Source: Haloarcula halophila
GTDB lineage: Archaea; Halobacteriota; Halobacteria; Halobacteriales; Haloarculaceae
Length of the DNA: 64,000 bases
NCBI RefSeq assembly: GCF_029278565.1
Contig: NZ_CP119560.1
Coordinates: 310,001 to 374,000, forward strand
Direction of reading: 5' to 3'
The translations under genes were made by a program, and so were the position numbers. Shown in pieces: positions 32,606-63,407 of this stretch. Numbering within the stretch: the stretch's first letter is position 1; every line of letters begins with the position of its first letter. The notes under the pieces are model-generated. The model worked only from the letters and a program-made list of their open reading frames with translations. It did no database searches and had not been told where the DNA came from.

Positions 32606-36174
<3,569 letters not shown>

Positions 36175-46414: not shown

Positions 46415-47260
46415 CTAGTGGTTGTTCCCTGGGTGATCGTACGCTTCACCGTTATCCATCGGCTGGTATCCGAGCCGTCGACGCGCGTGACGGATCGAGA
46501 ACCATCGCCGGTCGTTGTCGCTCACTCCGTTGAAGATGCCATAGGAGACATCGTCGTCCTGCAGACAGCAGTCGACGAGGTGTGCGAAATCACGCCGGGA
46601 GTGCCACATCGCCTTCGTCCGTGTGACCAACCGCCGGTATTCCTGACTGTCTCGGGTCAGATCACCATCTGCGACCCGTTGTTCTGCCTGACCGTACGGG
46701 GTATCGTGCGTGTATGGCAGTACCGTACAGATTCTGAGCGCGTAGAACCGCGCTGGCGTGCCGACCGACTCACTGTAATAGCGACCGAGATCCTCGCCGA
46801 ACGACTTCGTCGCCGCATAGAACGAATCCGGCCGAACAGGATCGTTCTGGTCGATCTTCAACGGAAAATCCGGACGGTATAGCTCCGGTGCGAGCGTCTC
46901 CTCGTACATCCCTTGGACGTGATTGGTCGACCCGAACACGAACGACTCTACACCCGCATCGCGGGCTGCTTCGAGTACGTTGTACATCCCGACGACGTTC
47001 GGTTCGAAAACATCGGCCCAGTCCCCGTCGATATATGGGTAAGCAGCAAGGTGGACGACGGCATCCTGTCCGTCGAACGCAGGACGAATCGCCTCGTACT
47101 CCGTGATATCGGCAACGTGGGTGTCGAACTGCCCGTACCGGTGGTCCGACGCCCGATCGGACCGGTTCAAGTAGGTAAACTCGTAATCGGACCGCCCATC
47201 GAGATGATCGATGATCGCGGTGCCACAGCGTCCGTAGGCACCAGTAACAAGAACGTTCAT
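46415..47260 (-). CDS. NAD-dependent epimerase/dehydratase family protein, uronate-dehydrogenase-like
   Basis: This 281-residue extended SDR has an NAD-binding start MNVLVTGAYGRCGTAIIDHL, a VVHLAAYPYIDGDW strand, a FGSTNHVQGMY segment and the catalytic YAATK (Tyr148, Lys152). The STNHV and HxAAYP features resemble uronate dehydrogenase, which oxidises glucuronate or galacturonate to the aldaro-lactone. The neighbours (mannonate dehydratase, KDG-type enzyme) support a sugar-acid role. Alternatives are a nucleotide-sugar epimerase. A TATA candidate (CGATAAACACT on the minus strand, about 47290) fits a near-leaderless start at 47260. Confidence 0.85.
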   Translation of the reverse strand: MNVLVTGAYGRCGTAIIDHLDGRSDYEFTYLNRSDRASDHRYGQFDTHVADITEYEAIRPAFDGQDAVVHLAAYPYIDGDWADVFEPNVVGMYNVLEAARDAGVESFVFGSTNHVQGMYEETLAPELYRPDFPLKIDQNDPVRPDSFYAATKSFGEDLGRYYSESVGTPARFYALRICTVLPYTHDTPYGQAEQRVADGDLTRDSQEYRRLVTRTKAMWHSRRDFAHLVDCCLQDDDVSYGIFNGVSDNDRRWFSIRHARRRLGYQPMDNGEAYDHPGNNH

Positions 47261-47348
47261 GACGGGGTGGACGTTTGTCGTGTCATATCCAGTTAGTGTT
47301 TATCGCCGTCCGTTTACGGTGCCGCTTTCCACGAGGGGAACATCGGTC

Positions 47349-48422
47349 TCAGGGAGAGCGCCGGGAGCATTCGAGCAGTCCGTTGAGGTAGGCTACAGCG
47401 TGCGCACGAGATCGGTGTCCCCACTCCGTATCTCCGGTGATCGTCGGGACGTGGTCGGGGACCATGACGCCGTCGAACCCGACGTCTTGCAGCGCCCCGA
47501 TGGCGGTCAGCGCATCGAAGTTGCTCCGGTCGTCGTCGACAAACGTCTCCGTGAAACTCGGCCAGGTACCGATGACATCGCGGAAGTGTACGAAGACGAT
47601 GTCATCCTCTTCGCCGAACCGTTCGATGACCTCGGTGACATCCGTCCCCGGCATTTCCGAGAAGCAACCCAGACAGAGCTTGAGACCGTGGTTATCGCTC
47701 GGAACTGCGGTCATCGCTCGCTCGAACGCTTCGACGTTCCGGAACAACCGCGGAATCCCACCCAACTGTTCAACCGTGGGCGGATCCGCCGGATGGAGTG
47801 CCAGCGTGACACCGGCTTCTTCGGCAACGGGAAGAACCGCTTCGAGGAACCGCTCGTAATTGTCCCAGAGTTCTGCCTCCTCGTATTCGCGTTCGACTTC
47901 CGGAGCCCGTTCGTACGGCTCGTCGATATCGTCGATATCGAATCCACGGCCACGTGCTCCACCCCGGAGCTGCACTGTTTGGGACGTCCGCATCGGGACG
48001 ACCCCACGTGGATTCCACTGATAGCCGAGGATCGGGATATCTGCCTCTCCAACGTTGCGAACGAGTTGCTTGATCGTCTCTAACTGCCGGTCCTGCCCAT
48101 CCACCCCCAGCATGATCTTCCCGTAGACGTTGTAGCTGAGCGACTGGATGCCCATCAGCCGCAGTCCGGCGTCTTCGGCTCGGTTCCGGGCCGCGACGAG
48201 ATCCGAGACTGACGGGACAACGCCCTCGTCGATGGTGATCGTCTCCTCGTCGTGACTTCCCTCGTCGGCGAAGACATCCCCGCGGGGGTCCCGGTGATCG
48301 AGGAAGATATCTTCGACACCGATCTGACGGCAGAACTCCAGCCGTTCGTCCGAAAGCGTTCTGGTCCGGAGTCCGGTCCGTAACGCCGGCGTTCCCGAAC
48401 CGTCCGCCGTGAGTTCTTTCAT
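47349..48422 (-). CDS. uxuA: Mannonate dehydratase (UxuA-type), copy 1
   Basis: This 357-residue TIM-barrel enzyme of the UxuA family converts D-mannonate to 2-keto-3-deoxygluconate. Conserved metal/substrate segments are VTLALHPADPPTVEQLGGIP (His-x-Asp), LKLCLGCFSEMPGTDV, IVFVHFRDVIGTWPSFTETF and GVMVPDHVPTITGDTEWGHR, ending with the AYLNGLLE helix. The start is supported by a strong TATA (GAATATATAAC on the minus strand, about 48447-48457) about 27 nt upstream, giving a leaderless transcript. It lies 50 nt downstream of the DHDPS-like gene on the same strand but has its own promoter. A second, divergent UxuA lies at 62027-62986. Confidence 0.92.
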   Translation of the reverse strand: MKELTADGSGTPALRTGLRTRTLSDERLEFCRQIGVEDIFLDHRDPRGDVFADEGSHDEETITIDEGVVPSVSDLVAARNRAEDAGLRLMGIQSLSYNVYGKIMLGVDGQDRQLETIKQLVRNVGEADIPILGYQWNPRGVVPMRTSQTVQLRGGARGRGFDIDDIDEPYERAPEVEREYEEAELWDNYERFLEAVLPVAEEAGVTLALHPADPPTVEQLGGIPRLFRNVEAFERAMTAVPSDNHGLKLCLGCFSEMPGTDVTEVIERFGEEDDIVFVHFRDVIGTWPSFTETFVDDDRSNFDALTAIGALQDVGFDGVMVPDHVPTITGDTEWGHRSRAHAVAYLNGLLECSRRSP

Positions 48423-48472
48423 ATATTACTGTGGTTCGGTGGGAGTGTTATATATTCTTGTGCTCCGACCCC

Positions 48473-49411
48473 TCACTCGATCAGTTGGCTGATGTCGTCG
48501 TCGAGTCGGTTGTAGAGGGTTTCTGCCTGCTCTAGCTCTGACTCGGTGAGGGGACAGATCGGCTCACGGACTGTGCCACCGTACATCCCCGCGAGTTCGA
48601 GTCCCTGCTTTACCGCCGGGACGCTGACCGCACCCGGGATTGCATTGTCCTGCCCCGGCTCGTCCCTGAACTGCTGGTATGGGAGACAGATATCTCTGAG
48701 TTCCCGGGCTCGGCTCCAGTTCTCGTCGGAAAGTGCGTCGAACAGGGCTAATCCCACCTCGGGACGGAAGTTGCTCACTCCCGCGGAGAACCCTTCGACG
48801 CCTTCCGCCCAGTAGGAGACAGCGTACGGCTCAGCCAGCCCATCAACCCAGACCACGTCGTCCGGACCCCTGGTCGTCGCAGCGCCGAGTTTGACTGGGT
48901 CATCGAGTGCGTATTTGATGCCTGCGACGCTCTCCATCCGCGATAGGTCGAGTAAGAACTCGACCGTGGGATCGAACCCCCGGACGTACGGGACCAGCGG
49001 CGTCTCCGTCACGGCCGCCAGTTTGCGATAATATTCGAGCACACCCTGTTCGTGCAGATAGGTGTGGTCCGGCGGCATGACCATCATCGCGTCGACGCCG
49101 ATCCGATCGTACTGTCGGATCAGATCTTGCGCACATTCCGTGCTTCCGCCGACACCCGCGAGAACACAGGCATCGGACGGTAATGCGTTGACGCTGGTCT
49201 CGGTTACGCCGACCCGCTCCTGCTGGGACAGTGAGTGGAACTCGCTGATGTTCGCCGCAGTCAGATACGTCCTGATTCCCTTCCTGTAATGTTCCTGTGC
49301 GTTTTCCTCGATTTTCCAGTGCGTTATCTCCCCATCCCCGTCGAATGGGGTTAGAAGACCGACGGAGACACCTCGGAGGCGTTGTTTGACCGTGTCGAAT
49401 TGTAATGGCAT
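48473..49411 (-). CDS. DHDPS-family enzyme, KDG/5-keto-4-deoxyglucarate-type dehydratase or aldolase
   Basis: This 312-residue class I aldolase-fold protein has the Schiff-base lysine in VAGIKYALDDP (Lys166) and the partner tyrosine in LVPYVRGFDPT (Tyr142). The N-terminal motif GVSVGLLTPFDGDGEI and the TAANISEFHSLSQQER segment replace the usual GTTGE loop. The Y-x-R arrangement resembles 5-dehydro-4-deoxyglucarate dehydratases more than dihydrodipicolinate synthases. With a uronate-dehydrogenase-like gene nearby it could finish an oxidative uronate route; a KDG aldolase for the isomerase route is the alternative. ATG 49411 is chosen because a TATA element (GTTTAAATACC, about 49435-49445) would start transcription near 49415. 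Confidence 0.85.
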   Translation of the reverse strand: MPLQFDTVKQRLRGVSVGLLTPFDGDGEITHWKIEENAQEHYRKGIRTYLTAANISEFHSLSQQERVGVTETSVNALPSDACVLAGVGGSTECAQDLIRQYDRIGVDAMMVMPPDHTYLHEQGVLEYYRKLAAVTETPLVPYVRGFDPTVEFLLDLSRMESVAGIKYALDDPVKLGAATTRGPDDVVWVDGLAEPYAVSYWAEGVEGFSAGVSNFRPEVGLALFDALSDENWSRARELRDICLPYQQFRDEPGQDNAIPGAVSVPAVKQGLELAGMYGGTVREPICPLTESELEQAETLYNRLDDDISQLIE

Positions 49412-49602
49412 TGTCCATAACATGTCATTGCCGGTATTTAAACCTACCTCCAAGATCGAGCGGATAGCGGCCGACTCATACTGGTAGTTGGAGACCGATT
49501 CTGACCCACGCTGTCCTGATGGTCGTCACGAACCGCTCCGACGTACCGAGAGTTTCTGTCCGGACGAACCATCGCACGTGATCACTGGGGGCCTGCGACA
49601 CC

Positions 49603-50367
49603 CTACGAGTACATCGAATTCACTTCGATGACGTTGGCTGCCTGTGCCACCATCTCCGAGAGTTTGTTTTCGATCCGGTCGTCGGTCATCCGCTGTGAGG
49701 GGCCTGACACACTGAGCGCACCGAACACTCCGGCATCGGGGTCGGTCACTGCCATCCCGATACAGCGGACACCTGGGAGGTTCTCCTCGTCATCGATCGA
49801 GTAGCCACGTTCCCGGGTGGTTTCGAGTTCGTCGAACAACGCATCCGGCTCGGTGATCGTCGCTTCCGTCCGCTCGGTCATCTCGTGTCGCTCGAGGATA
49901 TTCTCTACCGTCTCCTGGGGCAGTTCCGCGAGGATCGCCTTCCCGAGTGATGTCGAGTGCATCGGCATCCGCTTTCCAACCTGCGAAGCGGTTTCGACGG
50001 CGGCGTCCCCTTTCGACTTGGAGAGATAGACGACGCGGCCGTTCTCTTCGGAACCGAAGTGGACGACCTCCCCGGTCTGTTCCGCGAGCATGCGGACCTG
50101 TTCACGGACGATCTCACGCTTCGCCACCCGTCCCTTCACCGATTCGGCAATATCGAGAAACCGGAGACTGAGATGATACTGGTGTCCGTCCTTGACGACG
50201 AATCCCTCGTCTTCTAGCGTGGCGAGGTGGCCGTGGACTGCACTCTTCGAGAAGTCCATCGCCTCAGCTATCTCGGTGATACCCGCCTCGTCCCGCTCCT
50301 GAAGGATTTCGAGTATCCTACAGGTCTTGTGGACCGCCCCGATTTTTCGTGGTGTGTTTGTCGGCAT
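49603..50367 (-). CDS. IclR-family transcriptional regulator (hexuronate island)
   Basis: This 254-residue regulator has an N-terminal winged helix (residues about 8-72, GITEIAEAMDFSKSAVHGHL) and a C-terminal ligand domain with VHFGSEENGRVVYLSKSKG, MPMHSTSLGKAILAELP and PGVRCIGMAVTDPDAGVFGA. It resembles haloarchaeal sugar-acid regulators such as XacR-type IclR proteins. It lies between the uronate catabolic genes and the uronate isomerase, so it is the natural candidate to control the island. No common operator could be picked out by eye. Confidence 0.92.
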   Translation of the reverse strand: MPTNTPRKIGAVHKTCRILEILQERDEAGITEIAEAMDFSKSAVHGHLATLEDEGFVVKDGHQYHLSLRFLDIAESVKGRVAKREIVREQVRMLAEQTGEVVHFGSEENGRVVYLSKSKGDAAVETASQVGKRMPMHSTSLGKAILAELPQETVENILERHEMTERTEATITEPDALFDELETTRERGYSIDDEENLPGVRCIGMAVTDPDAGVFGALSVSGPSQRMTDDRIENKLSEMVAQAANVIEVNSMYS

Positions 50368-51067
50368 AGATCAAAATAGATGGCACAGACACTTAGTTCT
50401 TGTTCACTATTGTCGAATCCCTGGATATAGGCCCGAGAACTGCTGAATTCGTCGTACTCAACTGAGAAGTAGATGTGAATATTCTTCATTGTTATCTGAA
50501 AACCGTTCGTAGAGCGGATAAAATAATAGGTGTACATATGTTAGACAAATGTCCGGAACCTGGGATTGCTCCCGGACACCTGCCGGTCGTCGGTAGCAGC
50601 GCTATTGTTCGCTCCATCACTGTGACCAGGCGTTTGGGAAGATGGTTCGTTAGGCTCGAATCTCCACTCTACCCGGAGCTACCGTACTCTTACCCCGGTT
50701 TGTGAGGGGAGATCGCGAACTGAGCCACCACGAAAAAGAGCCACCGACCTTCGGATCATAAACGTACACCTGTTATAATATGGGACACATCCTGTTCTTT
50801 GCCCCCTTTCCACGCTTGGTATGTAGCCGTAAGCAGGGATATTCTCTCATAGAGAATACCCGTCTACGATGCACTAATTTACGGAGCCCGAAGTGGATAA
50901 ATATCTTCCACACCCTGCGAATGTTAATTGGTACCACATACCTCCACACGATATACCCGCCGTAATCAGCCGCATAAATGCCTCTATTCATTGATTCGAT
51001 AGCCGAGAACCGGACTCACGAGCCAGCTCTCGATACATTTTTACGTGAGTGATTGCCACGCCGATAC
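50368..51067. other. AT-rich intergenic region between the IclR gene and uronate isomerase
   Basis: This 700-base stretch is one of the most AT-rich in the window (especially 50380-50560 and 50770-51000). No reading frame shows haloarchaeal coding bias. It carries the divergent promoters of iclR and uxaC, including ACATTTTTACG (about 51036-51046) for uxaC. It is a likely place for operators or upstream activating sites. Confidence 0.5.
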
Positions 51068-52432
51068 ATGGGATTCATCGATGACCACTACCTCCTCGAT
51101 TCAGACGTTGCGGTGGAAATATACGACAGTATTCGTGATCTCCCGATCGTTGATCCTCACAGCCACGCTGACCTGGAGGAAATCGTAGTCGACGAGGGAT
51201 GGACGGACATCTGGGAAGTCGAAGGTAGTACAGATCACTACGTCTGGTCGATGATGCGAAAGCGTGGCGTCCCGGAACGAAAGATCACCGGAGACGCCTC
51301 CAACAAGGAAAAGTGGCTCGCCCTGGCGGAGATCTTCCCTGAACTCGCCGGAAACCCCACCTACGAGTGGATTCACCTCGACCTGCGCCGACAGTTCGGT
51401 ATCGAGAAACCGATCTCGGCGGACACCGCTGAGGAGATCTGGACGGAAACGAAACAACAGCTCGACGACCCGTCGATGCGACCACAGCGACTCCTCGAGG
51501 AGATGGATGTCGAAGTGCTGTGTACGACGGACGATCCCACCTCGGATCTCGAAGCACACGAACGAGCGGCGACGGAGGTGGACGGGATCGATGTGTGTCC
51601 GACCTGGCGCATCGATAGAGCTGTTCACGTCGAGGACGCCGCCTGGGGCGAGTTTGTCGAGGAACTGGCCGCATCGACGGGAACAGATACGTCGACGCTC
51701 TCGGGATTCCTCGACGCCCTGGCCGAAACGCACGATTACTTCCACGATCACGGATGCCGGGCGAGCGATCTCAGTCTGACCGAACCGGTGTCCCGTCCAG
51801 TTAGCAGACAACGGGCACGGACTGTCTACCGGCGGGCACACGACGGGCACAACCTCACCGAGACGGAACTGCGGGACCTGCAGGCGTTTCTCATCGAAGC
51901 GGTCGGGAAACTCAACGCCGAGAAAGACTGGGTCACGCAACTACACATCGGACCGGTCCGCGATTACCGAGACTCGCTCGCGGAGACCGTCGGTGCCGAC
52001 GCCGGCGGAGACGTCTCAACACAGACGATCGAACTGACCGAGAACCTCCGGTACTTCCTGAACCGGTTCGACGACGAGATGGAGATCGTCCTCTATACGG
52101 TCGATCCGACACACTATCCCTCGATCACGACGCTCACGCGGGCCTTTCCCAACGTCAGCGTCGGTCCCGCGTGGTGGTTCAACGACAGCCCACACGGGAT
52201 CGAGGAACAGTTACGCCAGGTCGGGAGCGTCGACCTGCTGGCAAACCACGCCGGAATGGTCAGTGACTCACGAAAACTCATGTCGTTTAGCTCCCGGTTC
52301 GAGATGTTTCGACGGGTGCTGGCCAACACGCTCGGCGAGATGGTCGAACGGGGGCAGATACCGACAGAACACGCGACACAGTTGGGGCATCACCTGTCGT
52401 ACGACCGCCCGAAATCACTCTATAGCTTCTAA
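51068..52432 (+). CDS. uxaC: Glucuronate/galacturonate (uronate) isomerase
   Basis: This 454-residue amidohydrolase-fold enzyme converts D-glucuronate to D-fructuronate and D-galacturonate to D-tagaturonate. The metal site is in LPIVDPHSHADLEE (His31, His33). Family segments are EIWTETKQQLDDPSMRPQRL, VLCTTDDPTSDLEAH, WVTQLHIGPVRDYRDS, VGPAWWFNDSPHGIEEQLR and HAGMVSDSRKLMSFSSRFEM. ATG 51068 follows a TATA element by about 27 nt and starts the conserved FIDDHYLLDSDVAVEIYD. It opens the plus-strand half of the hexuronate island, next to the SDR and GH4 genes. Confidence 0.95.
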   Translation: MGFIDDHYLLDSDVAVEIYDSIRDLPIVDPHSHADLEEIVVDEGWTDIWEVEGSTDHYVWSMMRKRGVPERKITGDASNKEKWLALAEIFPELAGNPTYEWIHLDLRRQFGIEKPISADTAEEIWTETKQQLDDPSMRPQRLLEEMDVEVLCTTDDPTSDLEAHERAATEVDGIDVCPTWRIDRAVHVEDAAWGEFVEELAASTGTDTSTLSGFLDALAETHDYFHDHGCRASDLSLTEPVSRPVSRQRARTVYRRAHDGHNLTETELRDLQAFLIEAVGKLNAEKDWVTQLHIGPVRDYRDSLAETVGADAGGDVSTQTIELTENLRYFLNRFDDEMEIVLYTVDPTHYPSITTLTRAFPNVSVGPAWWFNDSPHGIEEQLRQVGSVDLLANHAGMVSDSRKLMSFSSRFEMFRRVLANTLGEMVERGQIPTEHATQLGHHLSYDRPKSLYSF

Positions 52433-52536: not shown

Positions 52537-53322
52537 ATGAGTCAGTCTTTCCAAGGCGAAACTGCGATTGTCACCGGTGCATCCCGCGGAATCGGGCGGG
52601 GAATCGCACAGAAGTTTGCCGACGAAGGTGCGTCTGTCGTCGTCAACTACCGCTCGGCGGCGGATCTAGCGGAAGAAGTCGTGTCCGAGATCGAAGCCGA
52701 CGGCGGGGAGGCCGTCGCTGTGCAGGCGGACGTCTCGAACTACGACGAGGTGGCCGCGATGGTCGAAGCCACTGTCGAAGAGTTCGGCTCGCTCGACGTT
52801 CTGGTAAACAACGCCGGGATCGTCGAGACCGATCCAGCGGAGGAGTTCGACATAGAGACGTGGCGTCGGGTCGTTGACGTGGACCTCACGGGAACGTTCA
52901 TCTGTTCGCAACTCGCCGCCAAAGAAATGATCGACAGCGATGGCGGCGCAATCGTCAACGTGGCCTCGATGATGGGCGGCATGGGATTCGCACTGCGCTC
53001 ACCGTACTGTTCGGCCAAAGGCGGTGCCATCAACCTCACACGGACACTCGCCGTCGAGTGGGCCGAACACGACATCTCGGTGAACGCGCTCGCACCGGGG
53101 TTCATCTATACGGACATTACGGACGAGACGCAGGAATCCGCGGGATATACCGACACGGATATCAAACGACGGACCCCGATGGCCCGCTACGGGTCGATCG
53201 AGGAGATGGCCAACTGCGTGTCATTCCTCGCCCGGGACGACACGTTCGTCACTGGAGAGGTGCTCCACGCCGATGGCGGGTGGACCTCGGACGCCTGGCG
53301 GTACCACGAAGGCCGAGCGTAA
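52537..53322 (+). CDS. Short-chain dehydrogenase/reductase, probable hexuronate-pathway reductase
   Basis: This 261-residue classical SDR has a cofactor loop TGASRGIG (residues 13-20), NNAG at 91-94, catalytic Ser144, Tyr157 and Lys161 (YCSAKGG), and a C-terminal DGGWTSD. The arginine-containing loop and NYRS at the second strand favour NADP(H). Directly after uronate isomerase, it may reduce fructuronate or tagaturonate to the hexonate needed by the mannonate dehydratases, replacing the unrelated UxuB/UxaB. KduD-like or gluconate-dehydrogenase roles are alternatives. It is preceded by a 7-bp-arm inverted repeat. Confidence 0.88.
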   Translation: MSQSFQGETAIVTGASRGIGRGIAQKFADEGASVVVNYRSAADLAEEVVSEIEADGGEAVAVQADVSNYDEVAAMVEATVEEFGSLDVLVNNAGIVETDPAEEFDIETWRRVVDVDLTGTFICSQLAAKEMIDSDGGAIVNVASMMGGMGFALRSPYCSAKGGAINLTRTLAVEWAEHDISVNALAPGFIYTDITDETQESAGYTDTDIKRRTPMARYGSIEEMANCVSFLARDDTFVTGEVLHADGGWTSDAWRYHEGRA

Positions 53323-53528: not shown

Positions 53529-55019
53529 ATGAGCGGAACTACAGACCAGCAGGAACTACCGGTATCAAGCGAGGCACCCGTCGATCCGGACGACGTGAAG
53601 ATCGGATACATCGGCGGAGGGAGCCGACTGTGGGCGAGAAACCTAACCAAGGAACTCGCCCTCGACGAGACCATGTCCGGGGAAGTCGTACTGTACGACA
53701 CGGACCACGAGAGCGCACAACGAAACGAGGAGTTCGGAAACTGGGTACAGGAGCGTGAGGACGCGGTCGGTGATTGGACGTATCGTGCCGTCGAATCACG
53801 GGAAGAAGCCCTCACTGACGCCGATTTCGTCATCCTTTCGACGCAGTACCCGCCGACAGAGTCGATGAAATACGACCTGGAGATCCCCCAGGAGTACGGA
53901 ATCCATCAGGCCGTCGCGATCACGAGCGGACCCGGTGGGATCATGCGTGCGATGCGGACGATTCCCGTCTACCGTGATATCGCAGCAGCGGTTCGGGAAC
54001 ACTGTCCCGATGCGTGGGTGCTGAACTACACGAACCCGGTGACCTACGTCACCCGGACGCTGTACGAGGAGTATCCGGACATCAACGCGCTCGGGCTCTG
54101 TCACGAGGTGTTCCACGCACAAGAGCTTCTTGCAGAGATCGTCGAGGACCAGTTCGACGTCCCCAAGCCCTCCCGGGACGAGATCGAGGTCAACGTCCAG
54201 GGTGTCAATCACTTCACGTGGGTGGACGAGGCCTCCTGGAACGGCCACGAACTGCTCCCCGTCGTCGAACAGTACATGGAGAAGGACGGGGTCGTTCGAG
54301 AGTACACGCAATCGGAACTGGAAGACACCTCCCACTCGATGCACCCCGGATTCCAGGACAACAACCAAGTCACCTACGAGCTGTTCAAGCGCTTCGGGGT
54401 GTTGCCCGCGGCGGGCGACCGCCACCTCGTCGAGTTCGCGACGTGGTTCCTCCAGGAGGACATGCCGGAGGACCTGAACCGGTGGGGCGTCCTCCGGACG
54501 CCGAGTTCGTATCGGTTGGCCCGGTGGGACGACGAGGCTGACACGGTGCAACAGTTCATGGACGGCGAGAAGGAGTTCGACCTCTCCGAGACGGGGGAAG
54601 TGATTACGGAACTCATGGAAGCACTCGCCGGTCTCTCCGATATGCGGACTCACGTGAACCTCCCCAACAACGGCCAGATGCTGGACGCTCCGGAAGACGC
54701 CGTTGTCGAGACAAACGCGGTCGTGACCCAGAACAACGTTCGGCCGATCGTCAGCGGTTCACTGCCACGGCCGGTCCAGACCCAGGTTACGCAGCAGATC
54801 AACAACCAGGAGACGATCATCGAGGCCGCGTTCGACGGCTACGACGTCGATTACGCGTTCCAGGGCTTCCTGAACGATCCACAGGTCAAGACGCTCCAGA
54901 CGGAGACTGCCAGGGACCTCTTCGCCGAGATGTGTAACGCGCTCCAGCCGCTCCTGGACGACTGGAACCTCGGCGAGTCCGAGACACTGAACGAATCCCC
55001 GAAGTTCGACCTCGAATAG
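53529..55019 (+). CDS. GH4 family glycosidase with CHEV signature, probable alpha-galacturonidase
   Basis: This 496-residue NAD- and metal-dependent glycosidase has an N-terminal Rossmann motif KIGYIGGGSRLWARNL, the ITSGPGGIMRAMRTIP segment, NYTNP (166-170) and the active-site tetrad CHEV (191-194), which defines the alpha-galacturonidase subgroup of GH4. The second metal-site His is in NVQGVNHFTWV. The fold and length are normal for LplD-like enzymes. It would release galacturonate (or another uronate) from imported alpha-uronides in the cytoplasm. A TATA element (ACTATTTATTT, about 53489-53499) precedes it. The neighbours, a sugar ABC importer downstream and uronate isomerase upstream, agree. 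Confidence 0.9.
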   Translation: MSGTTDQQELPVSSEAPVDPDDVKIGYIGGGSRLWARNLTKELALDETMSGEVVLYDTDHESAQRNEEFGNWVQEREDAVGDWTYRAVESREEALTDADFVILSTQYPPTESMKYDLEIPQEYGIHQAVAITSGPGGIMRAMRTIPVYRDIAAAVREHCPDAWVLNYTNPVTYVTRTLYEEYPDINALGLCHEVFHAQELLAEIVEDQFDVPKPSRDEIEVNVQGVNHFTWVDEASWNGHELLPVVEQYMEKDGVVREYTQSELEDTSHSMHPGFQDNNQVTYELFKRFGVLPAAGDRHLVEFATWFLQEDMPEDLNRWGVLRTPSSYRLARWDDEADTVQQFMDGEKEFDLSETGEVITELMEALAGLSDMRTHVNLPNNGQMLDAPEDAVVETNAVVTQNNVRPIVSGSLPRPVQTQVTQQINNQETIIEAAFDGYDVDYAFQGFLNDPQVKTLQTETARDLFAEMCNALQPLLDDWNLGESETLNESPKFDLE

Positions 55020-55243
55020 TCGATCACTCACTCTCCACGTGAGAGTCTGTCGGGAACCCGGATTCCAGCGCCGAACGATTTTCTGTCTCGTTCGACGCAT
55101 AACTGACGGGCCCCCGTGGGAGCCGTGGGCGGCAGACGCCCTCGATGGGCGCTTCGAGTCGGGTTGTTTCCTACGAGGGATCGATGAACGTACATATTCT
55201 TCCGGTAGGTTTTTATATGATAGGTGGGAACAGTGAGTTTGTG

Positions 55244-56785
55244 ATGTCGGAACGAAACTCATCAACCGAACGTAGTGGCTCGAACGGAATCTCCCGCCGT
55301 CGATTCGTCGCGGCGACCGGCGTAGCAGGTGTTACAGGCCTCGCCGGGTGCGGTGGCGGCGGCGACGGCGGCGACGGTGGCAGTGGCGGCGACGGCGGCA
55401 GCGACGGAGGGTCCGGCGGTGACGGCACTGCGACCGATACACAGAGCAGTAACACCGGGGCCACGACCGTCAACTGGGCGCTGTCGGTCGCCGGGGAAGT
55501 CTCGGACGACATTCTCAACGCGTACAAGGAGGCGATGCACAGCAACGGGCTCTCGGACGATATCGAGGTGCAGTTCACCGAAGTCCCGTTCGATCGCACT
55601 CGCAGCCAGTACCAGAAGTGGTTCAGCGCGGAACGTGCCAGTCCGGACATCATCGACATGGACACCGGTTGGGCCGCTCCGTTCATCTCACGGGACTACC
55701 TGCTGAACCTCTCCGATGAGATGCCCGACCTCGTCGATCAGGTGAAAAACGAGTTCTTCGGCCCCGTCGTCGACGCGCTACAGGACTTCGAAACCGGCGA
55801 TCAGTACGCAGTTCCCCGATACATCGACATCGCGGGGATGATGTATCGGAAGGACTGGGCCGAAGAGGCCGGCTACTCGCCGGACGAGAACAACTGGCAG
55901 ACTGAGGGGCTCACCTGGAAGGAACTCTCGCAGGTGACCGCGGATCTTCAGGAGCAAAACGACACGTCGTACGGATTCACCACGCAAGGGAACGTCTCTC
56001 AGACGCTCGCTTGCTGTCCGTTCAACGAGCAGATGACGAGCTGGGGCGGGGCGTACTTCGGCGGGCGCGACAACCTCTACGGGCCTGTCGGGGACCGCCC
56101 GATCACCGTCACCGAAGAGCCGGTCATCGACTCGCTGAAGATGATGCGTCGGTTCATCTACGGGAGCGACGACGAGCACGCGATCCAGGACGACGGCTTT
56201 GCGGGCGGTATCACCCCGTCCGAGATCTCCGGATGGCAGTACCAGGGTTCGCTCAACCCGTTCCTCCAGGGCGATGCGGTCATGCATCGTAACTGGGGCG
56301 GGTTCATGTGGGATGCAGTCGACGAACTCGGTGCCGACAAACTCGGCTACATGGTGCTTCCGTACGCCGAGAACGCCTCGAGCAAGTACGAGAACACCGG
56401 TGTCGCAGGGAACTCCGCACTGGGTGGCTGGTCGTACGCGATCAACAGCTTCTCGAACAAGACCGAGGCGGCGAAAGAAGTGATCAGAGCCGCTGTCTCC
56501 GACGACTTCTACATCACCGGATTCGATCAGGAGGGGAACGTCCCGCCGAAACCGTCGGTCCTCGAATCCAGCGTCGTCGAGGAAACCGCGCTCGGTTCCT
56601 ACGTGCCCACCTTCGTCGAGTCGGCGAAGTACGTCATTCCGCGCCCCGCTTCGAGAGTCTGGCTCCAGGAGTGGTCGCCGATTTCGGAGAACGTCAACGC
56701 GGTCTACCGGCAGGAGAAGGCACCCGTACAGGCCATGGAGGACTGTGCGAGTGACCTGGAGGCCATCGAAGGGCAGTACTCCTAG
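55244..56785 (+). CDS. Sugar ABC transporter substrate-binding lipoprotein (family 1)
   Basis: This is a 513-residue extracellular solute-binding protein. It has a TAT signal SRRRFVAATGVAGVTGLAG with lipobox LAGC and a striking Gly/Asp-rich linker of about 30 residues that probably tethers the domain through the surface layer. The mature part is the family 1 (MalE-like) fold with QYQKWFSAERASPDIIDMD, AVPRYIDIAGMMYRKDWAEE, QGDAVMHRNWGGFMWDAVDE and GNSALGGWSYAINSFSN. ATG 55244 is chosen: a TATA (GTTTTTATATGAT, 55208-55220) lies about 29 nt upstream. It heads a four-gene importer operon within the hexuronate island, so a uronide oligosaccharide is the likely ligand. Confidence 0.93.
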   Translation: MSERNSSTERSGSNGISRRRFVAATGVAGVTGLAGCGGGGDGGDGGSGGDGGSDGGSGGDGTATDTQSSNTGATTVNWALSVAGEVSDDILNAYKEAMHSNGLSDDIEVQFTEVPFDRTRSQYQKWFSAERASPDIIDMDTGWAAPFISRDYLLNLSDEMPDLVDQVKNEFFGPVVDALQDFETGDQYAVPRYIDIAGMMYRKDWAEEAGYSPDENNWQTEGLTWKELSQVTADLQEQNDTSYGFTTQGNVSQTLACCPFNEQMTSWGGAYFGGRDNLYGPVGDRPITVTEEPVIDSLKMMRRFIYGSDDEHAIQDDGFAGGITPSEISGWQYQGSLNPFLQGDAVMHRNWGGFMWDAVDELGADKLGYMVLPYAENASSKYENTGVAGNSALGGWSYAINSFSNKTEAAKEVIRAAVSDDFYITGFDQEGNVPPKPSVLESSVVEETALGSYVPTFVESAKYVIPRPASRVWLQEWSPISENVNAVYRQEKAPVQAMEDCASDLEAIEGQYS

Positions 56786-56815
56786 ACCACCAGGCGGCTT
56801 ATATTTCAAGAGACT

Positions 56816-57772
56816 ATGTCGTCCTCTAATCAAAGCCAAAATCCAATAAAGGCGGTCCACCAGATCGCGACCAAGTGGATCGCGAACATGAGCGATACGC
56901 GGTTCGCGTATCTGCTGTTGCTTCCGACCCTGCTGACGGTCACGGCGCTCGCGATCTGGCCGCTGATATACACCTTCGAGATCTCGCTGCACGCCAATTC
57001 GCTGTCGGGGCTTTACGGCGATTTCGTCGGCCTGGAGAACTACGTGCAGATCCTCTCCGGTCAGCGCGACGCGATCCTCCCGAGCCCGTTCCTCTCGTTC
57101 CAGGACCCGATAAATAGCGGTCTCATCGTGACGTTCATCTTCGCGTTCGTCAGCGTCATACTGGAGGCGTTTCTTGGATTCGGGATGGCGCTCGTCCTCG
57201 ATCAACAGTTCCGTGGTCGGCGGTTCGTCAGGGCGGCGATCATCATCCCGTGGGCCTTCCCGATCGTCATCCAGGGGATGATCTTCTACATCATGTTCAC
57301 GCCCGGACTCGGGTTCGCGACCGAACTGACAGCCTGGCTCCCGTATCTCTCACGGAACGCGCTGTCTCACGGGCTCACGGCACTCGTCGTCGTCATCATC
57401 GCGGACGTCTGGAAGCAGTCCGCGTTCATCGCACTCATCGTGCTGGCCGGGTTGCAGAGCATCGACCGGTCACTGTACAACGTCGCGAAAGTCTCGGGTG
57501 CGTCGCCGTGGCAGCGGTTCAAGCTCGTGACGTTCCCGCTCGTGATGCCGTCGCTGCTGATCGCCCTGCTGTTCCGGACGATCGGTGCGATGCGTATCTA
57601 CGGCCAGATCGAGGCGATCACGAGTTGTTCCGTCGTCCCGTCGCTGAGTTGTATGGTCGTGCAGTCGTTCGACACTGGGAACTACGCGAACGCCGCTACT
57701 GTCGCGTTCATCACTGCATCGATCATCGGCACTGTCGTGTCGATATACCTACTCAAATACAGGGAGGTCTAA
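56816..57772 (+). CDS. Sugar ABC transporter permease (MalF/UgpA-type)
   Basis: This is a 318-residue CUT1 permease with six main helices: MSDTRFAYLLLLPTLLTVTA, FAFVSVILEAFLGFGMALVL, IIPWAFPIVIQGMIFYIMF, the coupling EAA loop LQSIDRSLYNVAKVSGASPW followed by QRFKLVTFPLVMPSLLIALL, and a C-terminal VAFITASIIGTVVSIYLLKY. It starts 30 nt after the binding-protein stop and is followed after 3 nt by the partner permease, so it belongs to one operon. Confidence 0.94.
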   Translation: MSSSNQSQNPIKAVHQIATKWIANMSDTRFAYLLLLPTLLTVTALAIWPLIYTFEISLHANSLSGLYGDFVGLENYVQILSGQRDAILPSPFLSFQDPINSGLIVTFIFAFVSVILEAFLGFGMALVLDQQFRGRRFVRAAIIIPWAFPIVIQGMIFYIMFTPGLGFATELTAWLPYLSRNALSHGLTALVVVIIADVWKQSAFIALIVLAGLQSIDRSLYNVAKVSGASPWQRFKLVTFPLVMPSLLIALLFRTIGAMRIYGQIEAITSCSVVPSLSCMVVQSFDTGNYANAATVAFITASIIGTVVSIYLLKYREV

Positions 57773-57775
57773 CTC

Positions 57776-58690
57776 ATGGCTGACAACAACGCAGGCGGCG
57801 GGCTCGTTTCGAGATGGGCTGACTACAGTATGCGCAACCCGGAAACGGTCTACCGATATCTGTTGTATATCGGAATCGGGGCGTTCCTGCTCATCTCGCT
57901 GTTCCCCATCTATTGGCTGTTCGTCATCGCACTGACATCCCCCGGTAACATGTCCAACATCTGGCTGTTGCCCAAGGGGTTCAACATCGGCGTCTTCATC
58001 GAGATCTTCCGGACGACACCGTTCCACTGGTACGTCCTCAACAGTCTCATCATCTCGACAGTGACGACCGCGTTAGTGTTGCTGTTCGCCAGCCTCGCGG
58101 GGTACGTCTTCGGTCGTATGGAGTTCCGCTTCCGTCGACCGCTGATGCTGGTCATCCTGGCGATCAGTTACTTCCCGGCTGCGTCGTACCTGATTCCGCT
58201 GTTCCGGTTGCTGACCGGAAACGTCGGTGTGGCCGGCGTCTACCCGCCGGACCTGTTCAACACGCATTTCGGGATTATCATCCCGCTACTGGGGATCATG
58301 ATGCCGCTGTCGATCTTCATCCTGACGACGTTCTACGCCCAGATTCCCGATGGGCTGGAGGACGCCGCACGCGTCGAAGGGACGACTCGCCTCGGCGCGC
58401 TCTTCCGGGTCATCATGCCGCTGTCGGCACCCGGAGTGGCGACTGCGGGCGTTCTCACGTTCATCATGGTGTACAACGAGTTCTTCTTCTCGTTCCTGAT
58501 GAACGACGGTGAGGTTAGTAACGGCGCACCGCTGGTCTGGGGCATGATCCGGTTCCAGGAGCGGTTCCAGGTCAACTACGGGGAGATGGCCGCCGCAAGC
58601 CTCGTCGCGACGATTCCGATAGTCATCCTCGTCTTGATCGCCCAAGAACGTATCGTCAGCGGACTGACCTCAGGAGCACTCAAGGAGTAA
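57776..58690 (+). CDS. Sugar ABC transporter permease (MalG/UgpE-type)
   Basis: This 304-residue CUT1 permease contains YLLYIGIGAFLLISLFPIYW, WYVLNSLIISTVTTALVLLF and LILAISYFPAASYLIPLFRL-like helices. Its EAA coupling loop is IPDGLEDAARVEGTTRLGAL with FRVIMPLSAPGVATAGVLTF, and the C-terminal QERIVSGLTSGALKE is the classic MalG tail. It sits 3 nt downstream of the MalF-type gene and 2 nt upstream of the ATPase gene. Confidence 0.95.
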   Translation: MADNNAGGGLVSRWADYSMRNPETVYRYLLYIGIGAFLLISLFPIYWLFVIALTSPGNMSNIWLLPKGFNIGVFIEIFRTTPFHWYVLNSLIISTVTTALVLLFASLAGYVFGRMEFRFRRPLMLVILAISYFPAASYLIPLFRLLTGNVGVAGVYPPDLFNTHFGIIIPLLGIMMPLSIFILTTFYAQIPDGLEDAARVEGTTRLGALFRVIMPLSAPGVATAGVLTFIMVYNEFFFSFLMNDGEVSNGAPLVWGMIRFQERFQVNYGEMAAASLVATIPIVILVLIAQERIVSGLTSGALKE

Positions 58691-58692
58691 CA

Positions 58693-59877
58693 ATGGCAGA
58701 TCTCAAACTCGAACACGTCACGAAACGCTACGAAGACGTCACTGCGGTAAAGGACATGAACCTCGACATCTCCGATGGCGAGTTCATCTGTTTCGTCGGT
58801 CCATCCGGCTGTGGGAAGTCGACGACCATGGAGACGATCGCCGGTCTCACGATCCCGACCGAGGGGTCGATCTACATCGACGACCGGGAGGTGACGAACC
58901 TCCCGCCGAAAGACCGGGGCATCGCGATGGTGTTCCAGAACATCGCGTTGTTCCCCCACATGGACGTCTACGACAACATCTCGTTCGGCCTCCGACTCCG
59001 AGACTACCCACAGGACGAGATCGACCGCCGCGTCGATCGGGCGGCCGACATCGTCCAGTTGGAGGATATGCTCAATCGGATGCCGGACGAAATGTCCGGC
59101 GGGCAGCGCCAGCGTGTCGCGATCGCCCGGGCGATCGTCCGCGAACCGGACGTGTTCCTGATGGACGAACCGCTGGCGAATCTGGACGCGAAACTCAAAG
59201 TCCACATGCGGACGGAACTCCAGCGCCTCCACAAGGAACTGGACACCACGATCATCTACGTCACTCACGACCAGGAGGAGGCGATGACGATGTCCGACCG
59301 CATCGCTGTGCTGAACGACGGGCAACTCCAACAGATCGCCGCGCCACTGACCTGTTACAACGAGCCCGACAACCTCTTCGTGGCCGGGTTCATCGGCTCC
59401 CCATCGATGAACCTCGTCGAGGGCACCGTCTCGAACAACGCGGTCGAGACAGAGAACTTCTCGGTCGAATTCGATCCGGCGACCATCGAGGGGATCGGTC
59501 CCGGTGACGACGTGACCCTCGGTGTCCGTCCCGAAGACGTCTACCCGGCAGAAGAGGCAACGGAACTCGCCCATCCCAGTGGCACGATCGGGGCACGATC
59601 GGACGTGCTAGAACCGATGGGTGACGAGATCTTCGTCTACCTGCTGTTAGGTGATGGCGAGACCTCGATGTCCCAGGAGACCGCGACCGACGACCAGTTG
59701 CTGATGAGCATCGACCCGGACTCGGACATGGCCGAAGGCGACGACATCGAAGTCGTACTGGATAGACAGAATATCCACCTGTTCGACAACGAGACAGGCG
59801 ACGCGCTCACTCACCGTATCGCGGAGATGGCCGGTGAGAGTGAGGCGAGTACGACACAGGCCGAAACGGGCGACTGA
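58693..59877 (+). CDS. Sugar ABC transporter ATP-binding protein (MsmX/UgpC-type)
   Basis: This is a 394-residue CUT1 ATPase. Walker A is GPSGCGKST, the Q-loop IAMVFQNIALFPHM, the signature MSGGQRQRVAIARAI, Walker B VFLMDEPLANLDA and the H-loop YVTHDQEEAMTM. The C-terminal TOBE/MOP regulatory domain (about residues 240-394) includes FIGSPSMNLVEGTV and LGVRPEDVYP. An Asp/Glu/Ser/Thr-rich tail ends the protein. It is the last gene of the importer operon; its stop is followed by a 290-bp gap before the GH2 gene. Confidence 0.95.
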   Translation: MADLKLEHVTKRYEDVTAVKDMNLDISDGEFICFVGPSGCGKSTTMETIAGLTIPTEGSIYIDDREVTNLPPKDRGIAMVFQNIALFPHMDVYDNISFGLRLRDYPQDEIDRRVDRAADIVQLEDMLNRMPDEMSGGQRQRVAIARAIVREPDVFLMDEPLANLDAKLKVHMRTELQRLHKELDTTIIYVTHDQEEAMTMSDRIAVLNDGQLQQIAAPLTCYNEPDNLFVAGFIGSPSMNLVEGTVSNNAVETENFSVEFDPATIEGIGPGDDVTLGVRPEDVYPAEEATELAHPSGTIGARSDVLEPMGDEIFVYLLLGDGETSMSQETATDDQLLMSIDPDSDMAEGDDIEVVLDRQNIHLFDNETGDALTHRIAEMAGESEASTTQAETGD

Positions 59878-60169
59878 GGAGCTCAGCAACGCGACCGTCC
59901 GTCTCACAGACGGACCCGGCCGACAGCGGTCTCGGAAACCGGAGACAATCGTCTTCTCTGCGGATACGCTTCAGATCACGGCTCTAGTAGCCATCGAACG
60001 TCACCGTATGCCCGATCGCACGACTACAGTGGTATCGGTGTGTAGATCGGTTCAATTGGGACTAGAGAGCCGAGTGTGGCTCGGTTGCGATCGCACCGAT
60101 GCGTCCGAGTCGAACCGTCCGTCGACTTCGGCACCTATTTATCTGTCTGCGGGGTGAGTCCGATTGACA

Positions 60170-61918
60170 ATGCAACTGCTAGCGTATCCTCGGGAGACGG
60201 CGGGACTCGACGGTATCTGGCAAGCGATCCCGGACCAGTACGAGATATACAAGAACTACTTCGAGGACTTCGCGGGCGAAGACGTCACGGTCCCGAAGAT
60301 CTACGAGCCCGACTCGTCCCGGGGATCGGATCGGCCGACCGATTTCAACATCACCGACGGACGGTCGGTCCGGATCCCTGCAAGTTGGGGCGAAGAACTC
60401 CCGGAGTTCCGCCACTTCGAGGGATGGGTCTGGTACGCAACACAGTTCGACCGCTCGCTCGGTGCCGACGACGGTCGGACGTTCCTCCGGTTCGGTGCCG
60501 TCAACTACAGGGCAGAAGTGTGGCTGAACGGCGAGCGGGTCGGTACCCACGAGGGGGGGTTCACACCGTTTAGCTTCGAGGTCACCGATCTCCTGGAGGC
60601 GGGGAGGAACGACCTCGTGGTGCTCGCAGACAACAACCGCTACGAGGACGGGATCCCGAACGAAGCGACCGATTGGTTCAATTTCGGCGGGATCAACCGG
60701 TCGGTCGAACTCGTCAACGTTCCGGACACCTTCGTTCGGAACTTCAAGGTCGAGACGACACTGTCGGACGGGCACGTCGATATCGACGTGACAGCCTGGA
60801 TCGACGGCGATCCCGACGGGACCGTCACCGTCGAAATTCCAGCGTTGTCCGTCGCCACCGACCTCGCCGCGGACGGTGGCTCCCGGTTTCACGACCAGGT
60901 GTCGCTCGCCGACTCCGACGTCGATCTCTGGCACCCTGCCGAGCCGACACTGTACACAGTCCGTGTGCGACACGGTGACGACACTATCTCGGACCAGGTC
61001 GGCTTCCGCGAGGTCACCATCGACGGCAGCGACGTGGTTGTCAACGGGGAGCGAGTGTGGCTCCGGGGTGTGTCGTTACACGAGGAAGCCGACGGGAAAG
61101 GGCGGGCACTCGATAGCGAGGCCGTCCGCGAACGGTTCGACTGGCTCAACGAACTCGGCTGTAACTACGCGCGGCTCGCGCACTACCCCCACACCGAAGA
61201 GATGGCCCGCTTGGCCGACGAGGAAGGGATTCTCCTCTGGGAGGAGGTTCCCGCCTACTGGGACATCGACTTCGGCGACGAGGGCGTCCGGGAACTGTAC
61301 CGACAGCAACTCCGGGAGTTGGTCCAGCGTGACTGGAACCGCGCCTCCGTCGTCCTCTGGTCGATCGCCAACGAGACAGACCACACTGACGCCACACGCA
61401 ACGAGGTGCTTCCCGAGATGGCCGAGTACGTCCGTGACCTCGACAGCACTCGCCTGGTGACGGCAGCGTGTTTCGTCGACGAGCGTGCTGACGGCCTCGT
61501 CCTCGACGACCCGCTTTCGGCCCATCTCGATGTCGCCGGTATCAACGAGTACTACGGCTGGTACTACGGCGACGCAACCGATATGGAACAGTTCCAGGAG
61601 CAGTCGGACGGCACGCCCATCGTCGTCTCCGAGATGGGTGCCGGTGCGAAGTGGGGGAATCACGGTAGTGAGGACGACCGGTGGACGGAGGAATACCAGG
61701 CGAGGATCTATCGCGAGCAGATCGACGCGATCGCCGACAACGACCAGATCGCGGGGCTGTCACCGTGGATTCTGTTCGACTTCCGAGCCCCGTTTCGCCA
61801 GAACGAGTACCAGCGTGGATACAACCGAAAGGGCATCATCGACCAGCACGGGCGCAAGAAACAGGCGTTCGACCTGTTGCGACGGTTCTACCGTTCTGGG
61901 GAGGTCCCGCAGTCCTGA
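60170..61918 (+). CDS. GH2 family beta-glucuronidase
   Basis: This 582-residue intracellular glycosidase has no signal peptide. It contains a sugar-binding jelly-roll domain (about 1-185, with NFGGINRSVELVNVP), an Ig-like domain (about 186-285) and a TIM barrel (about 286-582). Catalytic residues: acid/base Glu402 in LWSIANE and nucleophile Glu488 in VVSEMGAG. The NxK motif that holds the uronate carboxylate in beta-glucuronidases is present as NRK (552-554) within GYNRKGIIDQHGRKKQAF, and GINEYYGWYYGD matches the glucuronidase subgroup. ATG 60170 is preferred over an in-frame TTG 6 nt upstream; a TATA (CTATTTATC, about 60134-60142) precedes it. It would yield free glucuronate for uronate isomerase. 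Confidence 0.93.
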   Translation: MQLLAYPRETAGLDGIWQAIPDQYEIYKNYFEDFAGEDVTVPKIYEPDSSRGSDRPTDFNITDGRSVRIPASWGEELPEFRHFEGWVWYATQFDRSLGADDGRTFLRFGAVNYRAEVWLNGERVGTHEGGFTPFSFEVTDLLEAGRNDLVVLADNNRYEDGIPNEATDWFNFGGINRSVELVNVPDTFVRNFKVETTLSDGHVDIDVTAWIDGDPDGTVTVEIPALSVATDLAADGGSRFHDQVSLADSDVDLWHPAEPTLYTVRVRHGDDTISDQVGFREVTIDGSDVVVNGERVWLRGVSLHEEADGKGRALDSEAVRERFDWLNELGCNYARLAHYPHTEEMARLADEEGILLWEEVPAYWDIDFGDEGVRELYRQQLRELVQRDWNRASVVLWSIANETDHTDATRNEVLPEMAEYVRDLDSTRLVTAACFVDERADGLVLDDPLSAHLDVAGINEYYGWYYGDATDMEQFQEQSDGTPIVVSEMGAGAKWGNHGSEDDRWTEEYQARIYREQIDAIADNDQIAGLSPWILFDFRAPFRQNEYQRGYNRKGIIDQHGRKKQAFDLLRRFYRSGEVPQS

Positions 61919-62026: not shown

Positions 62027-62986
62027 TCACTCGACCGAGTCGAGGAGGCCACGCATGTATCCGATGGCGAACAGCCTGCCCTTCGTGTGGTAGCCGGGGT
62101 TGGAGTTGTCCTCCCCGGCCATCGTCGGGACGTGGTCCGGGCGCATGGGGACCTCGTCGGCCACGGCCTCCTCGTACGCGGCCATCGCGGCGTGCATATC
62201 CGTCGGACCGTCATCGTGCCACGTCTCGACGAAGGCGTCTTCGTCGCCCTCGATATCTCTGAAGTGGACGAAGTTGATCCGGTCACCGAAATGCCGGATC
62301 GCCGACGGGATGTCCGTGCCCATCGCGGCGAAGTTGCCCTGACAGAACGTCACACCGTTGTGTTCGCTATCGACCACGTCGAGAATCCGATCGTAGTTCT
62401 CGACGCTGTTTGCGATCCGTGGCACATCACGGACCGTCTCGCGGGGCGGATCATCCGGATGGAGTCCCAGTTTCACCCCGGCTTCCTCAGCGACCGGAAC
62501 GACCTCCTCCAGGAAGTACGCCAGGGCGTCGAAAATCTCTTCGTGGCTCTTCTCCGCGGCTGGGACCGGCGGACCGCCCTGCATGTCCGCGTTGTCGAAC
62601 TCAGTGACGAGTGAGCCGCCTCGGGACTCGACGTGTGCACCCGTCCGAGCCCAACGGACCCCGGCCATCCAGTCGTAACAGACCACCGGGATACCCAACT
62701 CACCACAGTCTCGGAGGAACTGCTTGAACTCCTCGATATCCTCGTCGCGCCCAGCAAGTCCGAGGCGAATCCGGTCTGTCAGCGGGACGCTCCCTTCGAG
62801 CACGGAGAACTCGATACCGTCCCCCTCCAACCAGTTCTGTAACTGCCGGAGCTCGTCGAAGGTCCAGTTCGTCTTGTCGTCGCCGATCTCCAGCGGGTGG
62901 ATAACCGCATCCGTGACACCCATCTGCTTTGCGAGCTCCCACCGCTCGTCGGGCTCCGGCGGAAGCACTAGGCTTGGTCGGACCAT
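62027..62986 (-). CDS. Mannonate dehydratase (UxuA-type), copy 2
   Basis: This 319-residue UxuA-family TIM barrel contains VKLGLHPDDPPRETVRDVPR, GVTFCQGNFAAMGTDIP, INFVHFRDIEGDEDAFVETW, MRPDHVPTMAGEDN and the C-terminal AIGYMRGLLDS helix. The start is taken as ATG 62986 because a TATA (AAAAATTATATGC on the minus strand, about 63010-63022) would overlap the longer in-frame ATG at 63013 and place transcription near 62990. It is convergent with the GH2 gene and differs clearly from copy 1 (47349-48422), suggesting separate acquisition or a related substrate such as another hexonate. Confidence 0.9.
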   Translation of the reverse strand: MVRPSLVLPPEPDERWELAKQMGVTDAVIHPLEIGDDKTNWTFDELRQLQNWLEGDGIEFSVLEGSVPLTDRIRLGLAGRDEDIEEFKQFLRDCGELGIPVVCYDWMAGVRWARTGAHVESRGGSLVTEFDNADMQGGPPVPAAEKSHEEIFDALAYFLEEVVPVAEEAGVKLGLHPDDPPRETVRDVPRIANSVENYDRILDVVDSEHNGVTFCQGNFAAMGTDIPSAIRHFGDRINFVHFRDIEGDEDAFVETWHDDGPTDMHAAMAAYEEAVADEVPMRPDHVPTMAGEDNSNPGYHTKGRLFAIGYMRGLLDSVE

Positions 62987-63407
62987 ACGGTCAGGAACGA
63001 CCCTCACTGGCATATAATTTTTCGTCTTCGATGGAAAGGCGGCTGTCTACCGTCGTGAGCGCTATATTATCCGCCGAAGTTGTCCGGGATCGCCCGCCAT
63101 AGATAGAGAGAGACAGGTCCGGCTATTCAAACAAGTGGGAGATCGCCCCCTAGATCACTGGAAAAGAAGTACAAAACCGGCGAACTCGATGGTACATACA
63201 GCGATAAAACGGATGTCGTAGAACGCTCCACTCACCGCAATCTCGGTACTCCGTGAAGCAATTCGGTGCTCGATCGAAGATGATATTCGTGAAGAGAGGG
63301 TTCCAGCCATCTGCGGAGCAACCTAAAATATCGCTTCCAGTCATCTGTGGCCACACGCTAGGTGTTTAGCGCCCCCTTCTGTATGGCCGGCCACGAATCG
63401 TCGGATG
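62987..63407. other. Intergenic region with the UxuA copy 2 promoter, otherwise no gene seen
   Basis: Apart from the AAAAATTATATGC promoter element near 63010-63022, no gene, repeat or hairpin was recognised in about 400 bases. AT-rich phrases such as CGCTATATTATCCG (about 63059-63072) could serve an unidentified plus-strand transcript. Confidence 0.45.

Follow-up and report, generated by a model that had tools for sequence, protein, structure and literature searches.

The GH4 enzyme encoded in the window, the 64,000-nucleotide stretch of Haloarcula halophila DNA analyzed here and part of a 525 kb contig, is on balance probably an NAD+- and metal-dependent α-uronidase that mainly releases D-glucuronate from imported α-glucuronides. 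This proposal is drawn from sequence comparisons, and the cofactor and metal dependence would follow from GH4 membership. The enzyme carries the tetrad CHEV, a motif proposed to be unique to α-galacturonidases, and an earlier note on this DNA had proposed from this tetrad, a uronate isomerase, and a dedicated importer that the organism takes up and cleaves oligogalacturonides. One CHEV-type GH4 α-galacturonidase, LplD of Bacillus subtilis, was reportedly described by Thompson et al. in FEBS Lett in 2013. CHEV and the nearest characterized enzyme do point to galacturonides. However, the entire bacterial and haloarchaeal branch shares CHEV or CHEI, and the motif does not suffice to identify an α-galacturonidase; on its own it was rejected as proof of substrate, since it does not vary across the clade split described below.

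In the proposed mechanism, imported α-linked uronides would be cleaved inside the cell by the GH4 enzyme to yield free uronate. D-Glucuronate would then be converted by UxaC to fructuronate, by an SDR reductase to mannonate, and by UxuA to 2-keto-3-deoxygluconate. The cleavage would proceed through the C3 oxidation, leaving-group elimination, water addition, and reduction of GH4 chemistry, which has been summarized for 6-phospho substrates as oxidation of C3 by bound NAD+, elimination of the glycosidic oxygen, addition of water, and re-reduction (PMC10628242).

The gene product, an intact GH4 enzyme with CHEV

The gene and the two sites that bear on its substrate are as follows.

53529..55019, + strand: GH4 enzyme, CHEV branch, haloarchaeal clade A; proposed α-glucuronide-cleaving uronidase (from domains, tree, and model)
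54099..54110, + strand: CHEV motif, Cys191-Val194; aligns with the CHEV of LplD; Cys191 expected metal ligand
53919..53921, + strand: Ile131 codon; Asp in LplD and all sampled bacterial CHEV enzymes, Glu in GlvA

The open reading frame is intact (ATG at 53529, stop ending at 55019, + strand, 496 aa), and both Pfam GH4 domains score far above their cut-offs (PF02056, E 3e-52, 177 bits against 23.2; PF11975, E 2e-41, 142 bits against 24.1); a chance or fragmentary reading frame was rejected. The identification of a GH4 enzyme with CHEV at Cys191 in the earlier note is thus confirmed, with the tetrad at residues 191-194 in register with that of LplD; given the amino acid composition of the protein, CHEV would arise in it by chance with a probability of about 0.0006. 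A phmmer search of the PDB returned 3fef as the best match (E 1.7e-107, the next GH4 entry at 4e-26); this structure is B. subtilis LplD, labeled α-galacturonidase. The AlphaFold2 model (pLDDT 91.9) likewise has 3fef as its top fold match (TM 0.83/0.94, 41% identity), and each of the 49 best-matching PDB chains is a GH4 enzyme. By sequence, then, the window enzyme and LplD are members of the same branch of GH4. Residues near-invariant across 141 CHEV sequences, namely G29-G31 of the NAD loop, C191, and N227-H228, are present, such that the enzyme retains the GH4 NAD-loop residues, CHEV, and the Asn-His of NHF. The redox chemistry of GH4 would be expected because the near-invariant residues of the branch are kept, the only departures being D42E and an acid before the GPGG loop. 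An equal-length ortholog, 98.8% identical and annotated 'glycoside hydrolase family 4', is carried by a plasmid of Haloarcula sp. GH36, where the neighbors and gene order match those of the window.

Two haloarchaeal groups and a lost acid

GH4 genes are present in 89 of 391 haloarchaeal genomes. Sequences of the branch, both bacterial and haloarchaeal and at least 38% identical to the window enzyme, all carry CHEV except for two with CHEI; the bacterial rows (n=73) comprise LplD and 72 others found by scanning named genomes. In a quick tree, the haloarchaeal CHEV proteins formed one group (94) beside a bacterial group (79). A more careful tree was built from 48 rows. Of these, 17, among them the window enzyme, formed clade A (support 99/100), with the window lineage as its earliest branch, the remaining haloarchaeal rows formed two starred groups, and the bacterial group with LplD was recovered at 95/33 with a weak base. 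These sequences define at least two well-supported haloarchaeal groups within the CHEV branch, termed here A and B. The phylogeny suggested in the earlier note has two outcomes: the window enzyme shares a GH4 branch with LplD, but LplD groups with the bacteria while the window enzyme sits in the separate haloarchaeal subclade (99/100). Placement in a non-galacturonidase clade, which that note had named as evidence against its own proposal, is approached by this result and not reached outright, because we know of no clade A enzyme that has been assayed.

Clade A is further distinguished by the loss of one acid. An Asp three residues before GPGG (xxDTxGPGG) is found in 103/103 CHEV rows outside the clade (73 bacterial including LplD, and 30 haloarchaeal), and is lost in 38/38 clade A rows, where it is replaced by Ala or, in the window lineage, by Ile (Ile131). 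The equivalent residue is Glu in GlvA and in 1s6y/5c3m and Asp in haloarchaeal GH4s with CHSV; an acid before GPGG is constant among the aligned GPGG-type GH4 members outside clade A, and the window enzyme is without one. On the tree, a single change suffices to account for the loss, and the window enzyme also has all of the residues constant in clade A (T105, D277, R323, W333, Q452). Residue 131 may contact the substrate, as suggested by its position beside the conserved GPGG loop and by a possible role of Glu111 in GlvA; the lost acid may thereby bear on substrate choice.

Two further sets of haloarchaeal genes merit mention. Loci L032, L033, and L034 (G228, Haloarcula marina; G264, Natronococcus sp. 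CG52; G271) each hold a divergent pair of CHEV GH4 genes, one with the conserved Asp and one without, and thus offer a natural side-by-side comparison. A second, distant haloarchaeal GH4 group (about 30%) with CHSV adjoins ABC importers at L046:9432-10739, L047, and L048.

The uronate gene cluster

The genes flanking the GH4 gene in the window are listed below.

46415..47260, − strand: uronate dehydrogenase-like NAD(P) enzyme; best solved relatives 3rft, 3ay3
47349..48422, − strand: divergent UxuA-like protein; 131 bits, below the mannonate dehydratase cut-off of 191
48473..49453, − strand: KdgD/DHDPS-family enzyme
49603..50367, − strand: IclR-family regulator, between two divergent gene sets
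51053..52432, + strand: UxaC glucuronate/galacturonate isomerase; 502 bits, cut-off 387
52537..53322, + strand: SDR oxidoreductase, candidate fructuronate (or tagaturonate) reductase; role proposed from cluster position
55145..56785, + strand: ABC substrate-binding lipoprotein; twin-Arg signal, lipobox-like LAGC; start codon uncertain
56816..57772, + strand: ABC sugar permease 1; annotated thus in ortholog
57776..58690, + strand: ABC sugar permease 2; annotated thus in ortholog
58693..59877, + strand: ABC transporter ATPase; annotated thus in ortholog
60164..61918, + strand: GH2 β-uronidase candidate; NxK motif (N554-R-K-G)
62027..63013, − strand: UxuA-type mannonate dehydratase; 230 bits, NF003027 cut-off 191

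On the + strand, UxaC, SDR, GH4, ABC importer, and GH2 genes follow one another with gaps of 2-286 bp and are followed by UxuA on the − strand; the − strand set upstream consists of the IclR regulator and the KdgD-like, UxuA-like, and uronate-dehydrogenase-like genes. Both the isomerase (51053-52432) and the importer (55145-59877; binding protein, two permeases, and ATPase) are therefore present as the earlier note had described. Family membership, CHEV, an LplD-type ancestor, the isomerase, and the importer together argue for an imported α-uronide as the substrate class, and to this extent the earlier picture of uptake and cleavage stands; its galacturonide part fares less well in view of clade A membership, the lost acid, and the glucuronate and xylan neighbors. 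Elsewhere in the window, four similar, paralogue-like lipoproteins resembling substrate-binding proteins are encoded at 11955-13184, 28360-29526, 32606-33796, and 41099-42286.

UxaC accepts both glucuronate and galacturonate. UxuA converts mannonate to 2-keto-3-deoxygluconate and belongs to the glucuronate branch; galacturonate via UxaC requires either altronate dehydratase or the epimerase UxaE. Given the genes found, the isomerase route beside the window GH4 can, by prediction, be completed for glucuronate only, because UxuA is present, the window genome has no UxaE match and no convincing altronate dehydratase, and no GD_AH (altronate/galactarate dehydratase family) match was found in G384, the genome of an 89% ortholog that has the same UxaC-SDR-GH4-ABC set. 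The sole GD_AH protein of the window genome is encoded about 30 kb downstream beside an L-sulfolactate-dehydrogenase-like gene and matched only the galactarate dehydratase model, at 135 of 731 bits, and no altronate model. With a score so far below cut-off and a sulfolactate-type neighbor, it was not accepted as altronate dehydratase; its sequence and setting make sulfolactate lyase the likelier role. This gene pair, at G000:C2:393940-394323 (L057) and L051:18168-19172, makes sulfolactate degradation possible.

An oxidative uronate pathway is also possible from the uronate dehydrogenase-like, UxuA-like, and KdgD-like genes at window positions 46415-49453 (−) and at L031:1979-6518, the locus of the 89% ortholog, which additionally has a 2,5-dioxovalerate dehydrogenase gene (803 bits, cut-off 750). 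Together, these enzymes could oxidize either uronate. No enolase-type aldarate dehydratase was seen in either of these two intervals, and its place is occupied by the divergent UxuA-like protein (HPADPP rather than HPDDPP), which may be a new aldarate dehydratase.

Neighbors and genome content of the two clades

Neighbors were counted by tblastn with fixed seeds within roughly 10 kb of the GH4 loci. With bacterial counts to be read as lower bounds since the seeds were haloarchaeal, UxuA was found near 23/34 clade A, 0/27 clade B, and 0/61 bacterial CHEV loci, GH10 near 17/34, 0/27, and 0/61, GH28 near 0/34, 11/27, and 5/61, and GD_AH near 0/34, 0/27, and 14/61, respectively. Against bacterial UxuA structures, the UxuA seed gave E values of 3e-39 to 3e-48. 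At the genome level, where all co-occurrence p-values are inflated by shared ancestry and the contrast between clades matters rather than the exact number, polygalacturonase GH28 occurs in 31/35 clade B genomes (p 9e-31; clade membership assigned in part by identity to the window enzyme), and shows no excess where clade A occurs in the absence of clade B (4/22, p 0.3). Genomes with clade A instead mostly carry xylanase GH10 (27/34, p 1e-22; the nearest at most 20 kb away in 23) and α-glucuronidase GH67 (28/34). Of the genomes that encode GH10, 34 also have GH67 and 13 do not; clade A is present in 27 of the former and in none of the latter (p 5.5e-7).

These sequence-based associations favor glucuronides over galacturonides for clade A, and make clade B the likely haloarchaeal α-galacturonidase and a better candidate for that activity than the clade to which the window enzyme belongs. 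A role for clade A on the galacturonate of the xylan reducing-end sequence is less likely, because the clade tracks GH67 and not GH10 alone. As a substitute for GH67, clade A was rejected, both being present in 28/34 genomes. GH67 by itself could explain the presence of UxaC and UxuA in xylan loci. We tentatively suggest, with somewhat less confidence than for the window enzyme itself, that clade A kept CHEV, lost the pocket acid once, and switched to α-glucuronides, acting together with GH67 in the glucuronoxylan loci of haloarchaea and by itself in the Haloarcula lineage. For the window enzyme the substrate is an extrapolation from the clade, because its lineage branches earliest in clade A and no GH10 or GH67 match was detectable in its genome. 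Separately, the clade B CHEV GH4 genes at L060, L061, L062, and L159-L178 lie near GH28 and GH78.

Alternative substrates and activities

The principal competitor is that the enzyme is an α-galacturonidase after all, with imported α-galacturonides yielding D-galacturonate for the uronate dehydrogenase and KdgD or, in part, for UxaC. CHEV, LplD as best match, the acceptance of both uronates by UxaC, and the adjacent uronate dehydrogenase-like and KdgD-like genes, with 2,5-dioxovalerate dehydrogenase in the ortholog locus, all agree with this possibility, but we consider it rather unlikely: the acid of LplD is missing from clade A, clade A genomes lacking clade B are not enriched for GH28, and UxuA of the glucuronate branch lies in the cluster. 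Nor was a pectin- or galacturonate-specific context found, as the window genome has no detectable match to the pectin enzyme families sought (GH28, PL1, or GH88/105) or to UxaE, and no convincing altronate dehydratase.

An enzyme of broader scope, accepting both C4 epimers or a mixed uronic-acid oligosaccharide (e.g. a microbial surface glycan) together with a GH2 β-uronidase, is improbable. Isomerase-type and oxidative-type uronate gene sets both flank the GH4 gene, and the genome is without any of the plant-polymer depolymerase families sought. The adjacent GH2 (60164-61918) is close to 6d1n, 7vqm, and 6ncy, of which 7vqm is the β-galacturonidase AqGalA and 6ncy a β-glucuronidase, and it has the N-x-K motif typical of GH2 enzymes recognizing uronates; the cluster may thus handle both α- and β-uronides. 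However, GH2 is absent at L031, and the paper of Thompson et al. in its title reportedly calls CHEV enzymes strictly specific.

That the loss of an acid which other CHEV enzymes and the aligned GPGG-type GH4s retain left the enzyme inactive as a glycosidase, or redirected it to another NAD-dependent uronide reaction, is highly improbable for a subfamily that is intact, conserved, located beside uronate genes in several haloarchaeal families, and in possession of almost all other near-invariant residues.

Implications

The two haloarchaeal CHEV groups separate cleanly, one with pectin genes and the other, including the window enzyme, with glucuronate and xylan genes. If clade A releases glucuronate as proposed, CHEV is an unsafe marker of galacturonidase activity and motif-based annotation mislabels dozens of archaeal enzymes. 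In that case, the change of Asp to Ala or Ile at one position would also offer a simple test of how GH4 enzymes discriminate between the two uronic acids. Finally, growth on pectin has so far not been obtained for haloarchaea that carry pectin genes (PMC9726719; PMC12343721), and the split between clades A and B bears on why this is so.

Comparison with known systems

LplD of B. subtilis (3fef) shares with the window enzyme the GH4 fold, CHEV, and about 42% identity over nearly the whole chain, but falls on the bacterial side of the tree and has Asp where the window enzyme has Ile131. The bacterial CHEV loci on the LplD side differ in that GD_AH is frequent and UxuA never occurs in the sample. 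The GH67 xylan α-glucuronidases are found together with clade A, and their product would enter the same UxaC/UxuA route, yet they belong to another hydrolase family and have no match in the window genome. Thermotoga maritima α-glucuronidase TM0752 (1vjt, 7br4, 6kcx) is itself a GH4 enzyme of the same fold, and would release the same kind of product if our proposal holds; it is nonetheless distant (17-18% identity in the fold match), with another motif after Cys-His and without GPGG. Clade B enzymes, exemplified by those of Natrialba asiatica (L060) and Halogeometricum pallidum (L062), resemble the window enzyme in CHEV and in 47-52% identity, and differ from it in keeping the equivalent of Asp131 and in their strong link to GH28, and also to GH78.
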